Assembly: GCF_024199845.1 (NCBI RefSeq)
Contig: NZ_JANADO010000001.1
Location: 6,634,001 to 6,698,000 of the forward strand
From: Bradyrhizobium sp. CCGB12
GTDB lineage: Bacteria > Pseudomonadota > Alphaproteobacteria > Rhizobiales > Xanthobacteraceae
Direction of reading: 5' to 3'
DNA: 64,000 nucleotides
Below the pieces are notes generated by a model. It searched no databases and was not told the origin of the DNA. It saw nothing but the letters and a program-made list of their open reading frames with translations. Below, piece after piece: positions 1,065 to 6,665 of this stretch. The translations under genes were made by a program, and so were the position numbers. How positions within the stretch are numbered: the stretch's first letter is position 1; every line of letters begins with the position of its first letter.

Positions 1065-1646
1065 TCACATCTTCCCGTAGGAGGCGCCGCGCCGCGTGAT
1101 GATGATGTAGCGCGCATCCTGCCGGGTCTCGTTCTCGAAGATCACTGCGCGCATCACGTCGAAATCCAGACAATCGCCCTCGCGCAGCCGCACCGCCTTG
1201 GCATCGATATGCACGGCGATCGCGCCCTCCAGCATCAGAAGCTGCTGGGTGAAGGCGTTGCGGCCCCAGGGGCTATAGGAGACGCGGGCGCCAGCCGGCA
1301 GGTCGACGACGATGATCTCGATGCCGCTTGCCGCATCCGGCGGCGAGGCATGACGCCGCCGGTAGCCGCTGTCGGGATCACGCCAGTGCGGCTGGTCGGC
1401 GAGCCGCACCAGCCGCTCCGGCGGTTTCTCGGCCAGCGCGACGACATCGCTGAGCGACACGTCGAGTGCCGCGCAAAGCTTTCCGAGCAGCGCAGCCGTC
1501 GCGCTGCTCTGTGCCCGCTCCACCCGCCCGATCATGGCCCGGCTGACGCCGGACCGCACCGCGAGTTCGTTCAACGTGATGCCCGCCTGCGTCCGCAGCG
1601 TCTTCAGGCGCCGACCGATCGCGCGGTCGAGTTTTTGCTGGTCCAT
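1065..1646 (-). CDS. XRE-family regulator with C-terminal cupin domain
   Basis: The protein has 193 residues. Residues 12-66 form an XRE-type helix-turn-helix (RLKTLRTQAGITLNELAVRSGVSRAMIGRVER). Residues about 105-185 are a cupin-like barrel that ends in VIFENETRQDARYIIITRRG. This architecture is typical of small one-component repressors of amine or amino-acid metabolism genes, in which the cupin binds the ligand. It is the first gene of a probable two-gene unit with the GNAT protein. The upstream region 1647-1838 holds an AT-rich stretch (1754-1774) that would suit a promoter. The ligand cannot be inferred. Confidence 0.88.
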   Translation of the reverse strand: MDQQKLDRAIGRRLKTLRTQAGITLNELAVRSGVSRAMIGRVERAQSSATAALLGKLCAALDVSLSDVVALAEKPPERLVRLADQPHWRDPDSGYRRRHASPPDAASGIEIIVVDLPAGARVSYSPWGRNAFTQQLLMLEGAIAVHIDAKAVRLREGDCLDFDVMRAVIFENETRQDARYIIITRRGASYGKM

Positions 1647-1838
1647 CCGTGCTGGTCCTGGCCTTCATCCGAGCGTTGCCCGGCGACGCGGACCGCAAGC
1701 CGCCGGAGCGAGAGCAGCTTAGCCGAGCGAACGGTGCGTGCCGAAAGACAGGGGCTAATATATTGGAAACTTATGCACCGCGCGAATGCGCGCTGACGTC
1801 TTCCATATCAATCGGGATGAAAGTATCAATCGGAAGGC

Positions 1839-1885
1839 TTGGAGCAGGCGAAGGGAATTGAACCCTCGTATGCAGCTTGGGAAGC
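1839..1885 (-). repeat. duplicated 3' part of tRNA-Gly (putative att site)
   Basis: These 47 bp match 3730-3776 (the 3' portion of the intact tRNA-Gly gene plus one flanking base) with only two mismatches, in the same orientation. The copy stops after the anticodon-loop region and has no D-arm or 5' acceptor strand, so it cannot make a tRNA. Such partial tRNA copies form when an element integrates at a tRNA 3' end. Here it marks the far boundary of the 1.9-kb insert that carries the metallophosphoesterase. Confidence 0.85.
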
Positions 1886-1944
1886 AATAGCGCCCGGCGC
1901 TCTTCGGCTTCATCTTCATGCCGCGTCCGCAAACCGCACCGGCT

Positions 1945-1991
1945 CCTCGTCCGTTTGTCCGTCCGATAGTGCATCGGACCAACGGACGAGG
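1945..1991. repeat. long imperfect hairpin at the 3' end of the mini-island gene
   Basis: The arm CCTCGTCCGTT (1945-1955) pairs with AACGGACGAGG (1981-1991). Inside it GTCCGAT (1961-1967) pairs with ATCGGAC (1973-1979). Together they form a nearly continuous two-part stem with a five-base loop. It lies 49 bp downstream of the phosphoesterase stop codon and within 60 bp of the partial tRNA copy. It could act as a transcription terminator-like structure, although there is no T-run, or as a recombinase-related inverted repeat. Confidence 0.6.
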
Positions 1992-2039
1992 ATTCCATAT
2001 ATGAAAGCTAAAATTGCCTTGGCTTGCGCCTCGCCCGAT

Positions 2040-3524
2040 TCAGGCCTGCACATCCTCGGGTGCCTTGGCACCCAAGCCAAGGTCTACTCCCAACTCTTTC
2101 ATTTTCGCGTTTATTGCCTGGATAGCCGCGCGTCGGCGCTTCTGTGCTGTGGTCACATCAACGCCAGGAGCTGGGTTTTGAGGAAGGTCGTCAATAATCC
2201 GGTCATGGTTTATCAGGGGCTTGGAACGCAAATTATCGAGTTCAGGCCCTGTTATTCCCAATACTTCACTGGAAATAGAGATCAGCTCCTGAAGGCGCAT
2301 TCTTATCTTTTGGAAGGAATCGAGGTCACGCGCGAAGCCGGCGTTTGTGAACTTGTTCAGAAGATCTTCCCAAACGTGATACGTTACCAGGAACGTATAG
2401 AGGCCATGCGCCCAACTGGATTCGGTGCTGCCATAGAAAGCGCGACGAATAAGTAACTTGCGTGCGTAGTTTATTGCCTCGGCCCTTTTCATTTCTGTAT
2501 TAGCAGACATTTCAACTGCGACCTGAAACGCGGGATCGCGATAGATGTCCCGGCCAATCGGCAACTTAATGACGCCATTCGGCTGGCCGATATCAACTGC
2601 ACTAAATACACCGGCATTCTTAGAGCGATTGAACCTGGTAATTTCTAAAGTGTACTGGGCGCGACGATTCCTGAAAGCGGAATTCAAATGAATGATGTTA
2701 AAGCCGGCATCATCTCCGCCATGTCCTGTCGAAGATGGACAAGAGAGGACGTAAAGGTCTTGCCAGAATTCATCGGCTTCTGCAGCTCTAGCAGAGAGAT
2801 GACGCGGGATCGAATAGCGGGTGAGACCTTGAACGTGACGATGCCCGTGAAGGATAAGGCTGCATTCGAGAGAAATTGCTGCTGCTAAAAATGTGGCAGG
2901 GCTCACGAGATACATGAGGGGCTCGTCAGGTATTCCGAAGACTGTCTTCCCTTCTCCCGCCGCCTGCGGCAACGGATGGTGATGAAGGGCTAAGACGCGC
3001 ATGACCGCGAACTCTTGGCCCGCTCTTTGTGGAATGCTATCTTTTAGGCCAAGCGCAAGGTTATGAGAATTTGCGACAATTGCATCGTATGTAGCTTGCT
3101 GAATCTCGCCCTTCGCAGCAAAGCTTGCTCCATTTGAGTCTAGAAGGACCAAGTCCAATCCCGAGTTCGGGTAGTATTTATTCTCTGAATGGCGAGGGAG
3201 AGAAAGCTCCTGATATATTGCGTCGTTCTTGAACACGAGGCCCATTCTCTTTACGTCGTGATTGCCCGCGATTGCCCGAATGTCAGTGAACGTCCCCGTT
3301 GCTCGAAATTTTTCGATCGCACCCTTCGCCTCTTTGAAGGTGCTAGCCGAGGGGCTGTCTACCAAGTCGCCTGTAATCAATAGGATACGATCCGACGCGC
3401 CTTCGAATCGTTGCATCTTCTCGCGTATGGTCGAAACTAAGACGTCGACCGCTCCTGAGTATGTGCCGTTCCCGTCGAGATGGAGGTCCGAAATTTGCAC
3501 GATAACGAACGATCGATCCGTCAT
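2040..3524 (-). CDS. calcineurin-like metallophosphoesterase with long unassigned C-terminal region
   Basis: The protein has 494 residues from ATG 3524, chosen because GGAGG lies 5 bases upstream; a TTG four codons earlier is in frame but overlaps that RBS. The complete metal-binding set of the family is visible: DLHLD (D13, H15), GDLVD (D53), GNHD (N88, H89), LHHHP, and HGHRH near residue 230. This points to an active dinuclear-metal phosphodiesterase or phosphatase. The last roughly 190 residues match no domain I recognise and end in a Lys/Arg-rich helix. There is no signal peptide, so it is cytosolic. It is the only gene between a tRNA-Gly gene and its partial copy, and its codon use is more A/T-rich than its neighbours', which suggests horizontal transfer. 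A nuclease or anti-phage role is possible but unproven. Confidence 0.88.
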   Translation of the reverse strand: MTDRSFVIVQISDLHLDGNGTYSGAVDVLVSTIREKMQRFEGASDRILLITGDLVDSPSASTFKEAKGAIEKFRATGTFTDIRAIAGNHDVKRMGLVFKNDAIYQELSLPRHSENKYYPNSGLDLVLLDSNGASFAAKGEIQQATYDAIVANSHNLALGLKDSIPQRAGQEFAVMRVLALHHHPLPQAAGEGKTVFGIPDEPLMYLVSPATFLAAAISLECSLILHGHRHVQGLTRYSIPRHLSARAAEADEFWQDLYVLSCPSSTGHGGDDAGFNIIHLNSAFRNRRAQYTLEITRFNRSKNAGVFSAVDIGQPNGVIKLPIGRDIYRDPAFQVAVEMSANTEMKRAEAINYARKLLIRRAFYGSTESSWAHGLYTFLVTYHVWEDLLNKFTNAGFARDLDSFQKIRMRLQELISISSEVLGITGPELDNLRSKPLINHDRIIDDLPQNPAPGVDVTTAQKRRRAAIQAINAKMKELGVDLGLGAKAPEDVQA

Positions 3525-3729
3525 AATCGCCTCCAAACCTATCGATGAAGAGATTTTCCTCGCCAGTTCGAGAAGCTCGCTGAAACCCAGCTAGTGCAGT
3601 TTTGTTGATCGACGAGCAGGTCACCGTTTGCCGAAATCGACATTCAACCACTGGTTTTGTCAACCCGCGCGGCAAACCGACAAAATTGCTTCGCAACGTA
3701 ATTCACGTTCGCTTGAACTATTGCAAACG

Positions 3730-3776
3730 TTGGAGCGGGCGAAGGGAATCGAACCCTCGTATGCAGCTTGGGAAGC
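3730..3776 (-). repeat. att-like direct repeat inside tRNA-Gly
   Basis: This is the partner of the partial copy at 1839-1885: 45 of 47 bases are identical, with differences at repeat positions 8 and 21. It covers the CCA end, T arm, variable loop and 3' side of the anticodon arm. The end of the repeat marks the likely crossover region. Confidence 0.8.
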
Positions 3777-3804
3777 TGCCGTTCTACCATTGAACTACGC
3801 CCGC
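3731..3804 (-). tRNA. tRNA-Gly (anticodon CCC)
   Basis: The 74-nt gene includes an encoded CCA end. The acceptor strands GCGGGCG (5') and CGCCCGC (3') pair perfectly. The anticodon stem GCAGC/GCTGC encloses loop TTCCCAA, giving anticodon CCC for glycine GGG codons. The T-arm GAGGGTTCGATTCCCTT is canonical. The gene is intact although it borders the putative island, as expected when an element that integrates at a tRNA restores the gene. The 167 bp between it and the next gene hold nothing I recognise. Confidence 0.97.
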
Positions 3805-3977
3805 GGATGCGCAGCTTGCGCTCATCCTGATTAGCCGAGACGGCGCGTTCCGCCAAGCGCTTTGGCGCCGCACGCCACATGCTTCTCAACTTTCCAGCAA
3901 GATTTTGGGTGCGTCGGATTGTGGCGGTGTTATGATCTCGGGTCTGGGGAGAAGCGTGCACTGAGTGGGGCGTGTGC

Positions 3978-4556
3978 ATGGTGGGGCGTGCTTACGCGAT
4001 ATTTGACACGGCCATCGGCCGCTGCGGCATCATCTGGAGCAGCACCGGCGTGGTTTCCGTGCAATTGCCGGAGGCGCGGGAGATCGACACCCGCCGCCGC
4101 ATTTTCGCAATCCATCCCGAGGCGCGCGAGCAGCGCCCGTCCGAAAATGCAGAGCTTGCGATCGAGGGCATCAGAGGCCTGCTGCAAGGCAACGATCCCG
4201 ATTTTTCCGAGGTCAGCCTCGACGCCGGCGGCGTGCCCGGCTTCAGCCGGCGCGTCTACGAGTACACCTGCACGATCCCGCGCGGAGAGACACGAACGTA
4301 CCACGAGATCGCGAAAGCATTGGGTGCCTCCGGCGCCGCGCATTCGGTGGCGCAGGCGATCGCCAAAAATCCCTACATGCTGATCGTGCCCTGCCACCGG
4401 GTGCTGGAGGCCGGCAATTACACCGACCGGCTCTCGCCCTATGGCGGCGTGATCTCCAAGCGGCGGCTACTGGCGCTCGAGGGCGCCCATCCGATCGCCA
4501 GCAAGACGCTGTTCGAGGTGCTGCTGCCCGTTGCCCCGCCCCGCGCGCCTACCTAG
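3978..4556 (+). CDS. ogt: methylated-DNA-[protein]-cysteine S-methyltransferase
   Basis: This suicide DNA-repair enzyme transfers alkyl groups from O6-alkylguanine to its own cysteine. The 192-residue protein has the active-site motif VPCHR with Cys139, the helix-turn-helix region with RGETRTYHEIAKALG (about 102-116), and the Asn hinge equivalent before the active site (KNPYMLIVPCH). An in-frame GTG at 3972 could also start it; neither start has a good RBS. An AraC regulator begins 9 bp after the stop on the same strand. The pair therefore resembles the domains of Ada split into two genes. Confidence 0.92.
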   Translation: MVGRAYAIFDTAIGRCGIIWSSTGVVSVQLPEAREIDTRRRIFAIHPEAREQRPSENAELAIEGIRGLLQGNDPDFSEVSLDAGGVPGFSRRVYEYTCTIPRGETRTYHEIAKALGASGAAHSVAQAIAKNPYMLIVPCHRVLEAGNYTDRLSPYGGVISKRRLLALEGAHPIASKTLFEVLLPVAPPRAPT

Positions 4557-6305: not shown

Positions 6306-6665
6306 ATGTACGACCACATCGGACTTCGCGTTGCCGACCTCGACGCCGCCACGCGCTTCTACAGCGCTGTGCTGGCGCCACTCGGCCATGTCCTGTGCTC
6401 GAGCGGCGACGGCTATGCCGGCTTCGGCCCGAAGGGCGAGCCGGCGCTCTGGCTGCATCTCAACAAGGGGCGGAAGGCCGACGGCGTCCACATCGCCTTC
6501 CGCGCTGGGGATCATGACGCGGTGAAGGCATTCCACAGTGCGGGCCTGAAGAGCGGCGGTCGCGACAATGGCGGCGCCGGTCCGCGCAAGGATTACAGCC
6601 CGACCTATTATTCGGCGTTTTTGATCGATCCCGATGGCAACAATGTCGAGGCGGTTTGCAGCTAA
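6306..6665 (+). CDS. VOC (glyoxalase/bleomycin-resistance fold) protein
   Basis: The 119-residue protein begins MYDHIGLRVADLDAATRFYSAVLAPLG, the classic opening of single-domain VOC proteins, and ends with FLIDPDGNNVEAVC, the closing beta strand. H4 and E116 occupy the usual metal-ligand positions. ATG 6306 is chosen because GGAG lies just upstream (6296-6299). The substrate is unknown; many such proteins bind electrophilic small molecules or antibiotics. Confidence 0.88.
   Translation: MYDHIGLRVADLDAATRFYSAVLAPLGHVLCSSGDGYAGFGPKGEPALWLHLNKGRKADGVHIAFRAGDHDAVKAFHSAGLKSGGRDNGGAGPRKDYSPTYYSAFLIDPDGNNVEAVCS

Follow-up and report, generated by a model that had tools for sequence, protein, structure and literature searches.

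A stranded mini-island at tRNA-Gly(CCC) in Bradyrhizobium carrying a diverged phosphoesterase gene

The DNA considered here is a 64,000-nucleotide (nt) stretch of the genome of Bradyrhizobium sp. CCGB12, hereafter the window, whose positions serve as coordinates throughout. Near its beginning, beside a gene for tRNA-Gly with the anticodon CCC, lies a mini-island stranded at a hotspot of integration, and the one gene that it carries, encoding a phosphoesterase, is a diverged return of a native gene lost from this genome. Our preferred account, to which we assign a probability of roughly 0.7, is that positions 1839–3776 are a degenerate or non-autonomous integrative mini-island carrying a xenologous, cytoplasmic two-metal phosphoesterase in replacement of the deleted native copy. 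The island is recognized by its repeats, its low guanine-plus-cytosine content (GC), empty sites and other cargo in related genomes, and the presence of integrase-bearing islands at the same half-tRNA.

Architecture of the island

tRNA-Gly(CCC), at 3731–3804 on the minus strand, is the sole tRNA that ARAGORN reports in the window, and its 3′ part is repeated at the far end of the island. The direct repeat, at 1839–1885 and 3730–3776, spans 47 nt, is identical at 45 of 47 positions (96%), and is the only direct-repeat family of at least 14 nt reported within 1700–3900. An earlier note on this DNA had described such a 47-bp repeat of the tRNA 3′ half as bracketing lower-GC DNA around a single gene without an integrase; this holds, with one adjustment to the position, as the proximal copy starts at 3730, one base outside the tRNA. 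The intervening DNA (1886–3730) has a GC of 51.4% versus a mean of 64.5% (standard deviation 1.1, minimum 60.3%) for stretches of the same length in the window, and none of the 1,168 overlapping comparison stretches, taken from 3804 to the window end, reaches so low a value. Foreign base composition and a tRNA 3′ part repeated at the far end, two marks of an island, are both present.

Between the repeats lies a single gene, that of the phosphoesterase, which starts 206 bp behind the tRNA and runs in the same direction as the tRNA and away from it. The remaining open reading frames (ORFs) of at least 80 codons between the repeats either overlap it, in a different frame or on the opposite strand, or enter the tRNA, and none of the ORFs of that size encodes an integrase; lacking its own integrase, the island is classed as non-autonomous or decayed. 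The features in and around it are as follows.

1065..1646, minus strand: XRE/cupin regulator gene (HTH_3 E 1.5e-12, weak Cupin_2), outer-side marker of the insertion site and conserved chromosomal neighbour
1839..1885, plus strand: att-like copy, at the far end, of the 3′ part of tRNA-Gly, 2 of 47 positions changed; no second copy in aligned empty sites
1944..1992, unstranded: 18-nt inverted repeat, 94% complementary, 3′ of the phosphoesterase gene; strong hairpin (z -3.56) without a T run
2040..3524, minus strand: calcineurin-type metallophosphoesterase gene, 494 residues, GC 51.2%, GC at third codon positions 54%
3525..3730, unstranded: arm from the gene start to the tRNA 3′ end, GC 48.5%, containing the ribosome-binding site
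3731..3804, minus strand: intact tRNA-Gly(CCC), the insertion target; proximal repeat copy at 3730–3776
3972..4556, plus strand: O6-methylguanine-DNA methyltransferase-type gene (PF01035, E 2e-23), tRNA-side chromosomal neighbour

Empty sites, other cargo and integrases at the same tRNA

The XRE regulator is matched in 124 of 265 genus genomes (E ≤ 1e-60), and the site was examined in 83 of these 124, the window included, picked by long contigs or best match; loci from duplicate genomes (L031, L042, L047, L050, L054 and L060) are excluded from the count. By distance, with the XRE start at most 250 bp from the tRNA, the site is empty in 27 of the 83, and in another 32 it holds an alpha/beta-hydrolase gene, an RpiB-like gene or both, with no integrase and no other marker gene. 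Other inserts at the tRNA-Gly site occur in 13 of the 83 genomes, the window among them. In five the site extends beyond the end of the sequence stretch, three of these showing a hydrolase or RpiB-like gene together with an integrase and one a hydrolase alone, and seven (L150, L151, L161, L167, L171, L173 and L180) have in common a large gene, at most about 1,060 codons long, whose repeats are in the style of FSPDGTKVAF.

The empty sites also align. Among the first 29 non-own loci, nine (L036, L040, L041, L044, L045, L048, L049, L053 and L058) align with the sequence on either side of the island up to one repeat-core copy inside an intact tRNA-Gly, and the island's flanks joined in silico are 66–79% identical to eight empty sites over 243–260 columns. 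Cargo varies as well: a second integrase-less mini-island of about 1.5 kb (L194, G208:C74:52500-64300) has 51% GC, a 45/45 repeat and small ORFs, two of which were put to PADLOC without a match, and two further low-GC (53%) inserts at the same site (L144 in G119, L196 in G185) carry, respectively, a lipoprotein-like together with a protease-like ORF of 328 residues and one ORF of 260 residues, the two larger ORFs likewise giving no PADLOC match. These empty sites and the different cargo at the same tRNA, with all 57 placed copies of the gene lying elsewhere, bear out the island reading of the earlier note; the situation that it named as speaking against an island, in which every close relative would have the gene and its repeats at this position with core-like GC and no empty site, does not occur. 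One could suppose instead that there is no island at all, the gene being native and the repeat an old partial duplication of the tRNA, as the missing integrase would allow; this can almost be dismissed, given that the stretch is a GC outlier, that other cargo stands between the same markers, and that the aligned empty sites contradict it.

Four larger islands (L158, L159, L162 and L183) have the half-tRNA repeat, 44–46 nt long, and the neighbour gene in common with the window's island; unlike that 1.9-kb, integrase-free island, they exceed 10 kb and have a tyrosine-integrase-like gene directly after the distal or repeated half-tRNA. All three integrases tested match the PHROG integrase family phrog_1; that of L162, incomplete at its stretch end and left out of the family search, is a 62% match to that of L159. 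In the window's own genome (two contigs), no match to the first hotspot integrase is found at E ≤ 1e-5, and the second is matched only in part, at 30%, although genomes that carry these integrases gave the expected matches in the same searches; this leaves the island without an evident mover in its own genome. An integrase acting in trans from the own genome was accordingly set aside as a candidate, as no close copy of either hotspot integrase is present there.

How, then, might the island have arrived? The 3′ part of tRNA-Gly(CCC) would have been the target of a tyrosine integrase that either came from another element or was formerly present and later lost. A small circle or donor would have recombined in there, with the tRNA left intact and its 3′ part repeated, as a copy now decayed, at the far end. 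The distal repeat copy has two changes in the window island and none in L159, L162 or L194, which fits an older insertion in the window.

A native gene lost and returned

The phosphoesterase family is present in 87 of 265 genus genomes (E ≤ 1e-10), with one match in the window's own genome; the other copies are 33–53% identical to the island copy, mostly 46–51%, a range that holds for nearly all full-length copies. Of the 86 non-own copies, 57 were placed one by one and 29 were not; all 57 lie between an M17 aminopeptidase gene and tadD, and none of them adjoins tRNA-Gly. Both flanks are common to the first 29 loci, whose copies are 63–97% identical mutually and 48–51% identical to the island copy, and the further 28 copies lie 91–223 bp from TadD. 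Each of 56 further loci from the GTDB set resembles the reference native locus on one or both sides. The native neighbours comprise the M17 aminopeptidase, an NlpC/P60 gene, a tadD-type TPR protein and, farther out, tad genes.

The native and island copies are homologous over their full length, in both domains and with the same motifs. They differ in that the native ones occupy a fixed locus and have a GC of 63–67% (29 copies) versus 51%, and in that the island copy falls outside the native clade, being separated from 28 native copies with support 92/98 and placed on a long branch beside a long Mesorhizobium branch. The island gene is thus a xenologue of the native genus gene.

The native gene itself has a history of loss. 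Among the 117 TadD matches, the 30 with loci were aligned; the phosphoesterase is present in 16 of these and missing in 14, including the window's own genome. Deletion endpoints vary among the loci, some of which retain gene fragments, and broken copies are found elsewhere, as a 3′ piece only in G193 and as split or stop-bearing matches in G258, G261, G112 and G034. Together these losses and remnants indicate that much of the genus descends from a carrier of the gene and that it was lost more than once. Ahead of tadD in the own genome, a stretch that resembles the last codons of the native gene survives, and this scar lies about 0.28 Mb from the island. The strain has deleted an accessory gene at the tad locus, where loss recurs across the genus, and carries the island copy instead.

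The phosphoesterase and its predicted activity

The ORF occupies 2040–3536 on the minus strand, with a likely ATG start at 3524 preceded at five bases by GGAGG, giving 494 residues. It matches PF00149 over residues 7–231 (E 3e-10; 41.3 bits versus 21.5), upholding the earlier description of one complete calcineurin-type gene. Calcineurin-like metallophosphoesterases are marked by the motifs DxH, GDxxD, GNHD, H and GHxH, and the island copy holds all metal-site motifs (D13/H15, G52-D53/D56, G87-D90, H182 and G227-H230). Two domains are predicted, a phosphoesterase of residues 1–307 and a helical domain of residues 308–494 that forms a separate bundle in the predicted structure. The core of the predicted structure can be superposed on Rv0805, GpdQ, Mre11/SbcD and purple acid phosphatases, so that motifs and modelled fold together give good support to the catalytic part. 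At the sequence level, the match to the Rv0805/CpdA class III cyclic nucleotide phosphodiesterases covers only residues 5–101 (E 1.3e-5), ending near residue 100, and Rv0805/Icc enzymes differ in lacking the helical C-terminal domain.

The C-terminal domain has no specific fold match. The earlier note had singled it out as possibly defining a nucleic-acid or nucleotide target; that it is a separate unit agrees with the predicted structure, and the proposed role in setting the target does not find a counterpart in the results. It evolves faster than the first domain, as the island and Mesorhizobium copies are 49% identical in the first domain and 30% in the second. No signal peptide is seen by eye. 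The protein would be a cytoplasmic two-metal phosphoesterase, whose most likely activity, by analogy to Rv0805-type enzymes, may be phosphodiester hydrolysis on a nucleotide or a nucleic-acid end, with the helical domain perhaps serving dimerisation or partner binding.

It is also possible, at somewhat below even odds, that the enzyme is an ordinary metabolic or housekeeping phosphodiesterase, acting for instance on glycerophosphodiesters or in nucleotide scavenging, and retained because the native copy was lost. Such a role accords with the stability of the native locus, syntenic in 57 of 57 placed genus copies, with the loss of that gene from the own genome, and with the presence of GpdQ and purple acid phosphatases among the fold matches. 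It sits less well with the 178 of 265 genus genomes that lack a match at E ≤ 1e-10, which mark the gene as dispensable, or with the finding of only one relative outside the genus.

Several points weigh against the preferred account of an integrated island with a xenologous two-metal enzyme. The recombination step, with integrase action, excision and transfer, is one that we infer; the two mismatches in the repeat could derive from the element itself rather than from age. No close relative of the island gene, and with it no donor, was found. The substrate is proposed by analogy within a superfamily of many substrates, and the best fold match is YydB (9a6c_B), part of a modelled complex without a known substrate; this YydD–YydB entry is an integrative model rather than a solved structure, and no YydD counterpart lies beside the island gene. 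Finally, one native copy (L020, in G077) has R where the catalytic H89 of GNHD is expected, hinting at an activity lost or changed in one lineage, and some members may consequently not be catalytic in the standard way.

Relatives outside the genus and the question of defence

Whole-genome searches of samples from the order (397 genomes), the class (337) and the phylum (349), among them some members of the genus, met no match beyond the genus itself. A scan of 84,980 species genomes gave one relative outside it, 42% identical, in Mesorhizobium sp. LNHC252B00 (L120). That scan, made with the family alignment, gave 58 full-family loci in all, 56 labelled Bradyrhizobium, one Mesorhizobium and one “Frankia sp. 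RB7” (L097, JAUEPE010000020.1), together with three unrelated 279-residue phosphoesterases; the Frankia entry is a native Bradyrhizobium locus with its flanks, and the assembly is therefore probably mislabelled or contaminated. Neither plasmids nor phages yielded a relative by tblastn with the window and Mesorhizobium proteins as queries. Nor did three pattern scans of IMG/VR, or a scan of genome_contigs with the window protein's own patterns, all these scans, that with the family alignment too, relying on exact short peptide matches and hence being able to miss relatives.

The Mesorhizobium protein has the same two-domain architecture and differs in its neighbours, the only defence-like context met for the family. 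About 30 bp behind its gene follows a run, at 6491–9434 of L120, of an AbiEi-like gene (PF09952 just under cut-off), a nucleotidyltransferase gene called AbiEii/AbiGii-type by the names of its plasmid relatives, and an AbiJ-NTD4 gene matching the candidate defence family PDC-S32 (1.2e-44), with spacings of 1 and 0 bp within the run; the 11.4-kb stretch examined there contains no tRNA. In the plasmid collection, the AbiE-like pair (61 records) and the AbiJ-like gene (26) occur without any phosphoesterase relative, and the two plasmid contexts viewed show no phosphoesterase adjoining, so that the pair and the phosphoesterase are not an obligate unit.

The earlier note had leaned towards a defence or anti-defence cargo, a suggestion that the profile tests do not establish. 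The protein scores 50.1 bits against the DS9_1 anti-phage phosphoesterase model (NF053862, NCBIfam), whose curated cut-off is 420; that model also hits 11 of 14 control genomes, always below the cut-off, and the match is generic. The PADLOC match to PDC-S60 (21.8 bits) is restricted to positions 3–92 of a 1,027-position profile, and PADLOC matches span only the generic first motifs. The family's main home, moreover, is chromosomal, beside tad pilus genes, and no defence-gene neighbours are seen at the native locus, the Mesorhizobium relative being the one case in favour.

A defence role is nonetheless plausible. As a single-gene anti-phage system, the phosphoesterase would cut a nucleotide or nucleic acid needed by phage or cell upon infection, with the C-terminal domain as sensor. 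We consider this somewhat unlikely: the single cargo at an integration hotspot, the packing of the Mesorhizobium relative against Abi-type genes, the repeated loss of the native gene and the faster-evolving C-terminal domain speak for it, as does the listing of calcineurin-like phosphoesterases among the N-terminal effector domains of bacterial TRADD-N proteins (PMC8195603), whereas the native copies have housekeeping genes as neighbours, defence models of PADLOC and NCBIfam are matched only below cut-off, five proteins from four other insert kinds at tRNA-Gly (L196, L144, L194 and L034) have no PADLOC match, and the AbiE-like pair travels on plasmids without the phosphoesterase.

A broader conjecture, unlikely in our judgement, would make the family a rhizobial one-gene anti-phage phosphodiesterase with a new helical sensor domain and immune-gene-like turnover, lost at the tad locus, returned as a diverged allele on a tRNA-Gly mini-island moved in trans by the larger same-site islands, and stacked with AbiE/AbiJ-type genes in Mesorhizobium. 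Alternatively, the enzyme might quench signals for the benefit of its carrier, destroying cyclic nucleotide alarm signals and so shielding the mobile element. The Rv0805-type core and the gene's ride on an integrated element are compatible with this, and in jumbo phages, counter-nucleotide enzymes of a calcineurin-like type have been proposed (PMC7824862); with no phage, plasmid or viral-contig relative found and with native copies being chromosomal, we hold it to be very unlikely.

Relation to known systems

Neither tRNA inserts without an integrase nor calcineurin-type enzymes are new in kind; the phosphoesterase family appears uncharacterised and narrow in range; a literature search found no paper on it or on a Bradyrhizobium tRNA-Gly hotspot, nor the paper behind the NCBIfam “DS9” name. 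Integrative and conjugative elements of Mesorhizobium use tRNA-Gly as an integration target (PMC8627217). Unlike the window island they are conjugative; the likeness lies in the use of a tRNA-Gly target in rhizobia.

Small integrase-free tRNA inserts are easily missed and rarely come with a clear before-and-after picture. Here the empty site, the sister inserts, the integrase-bearing islands and the native-gene scar are all readable, making the site a usable model for the loss and return of accessory genes. The genus is agriculturally important, and the family is testable with a single gene.

The hairpin at 1944–1992 was considered as a T-run terminator and rejected, no terminator-like site being detected there; its half-site is found once more in the window, as a 12-mer only.
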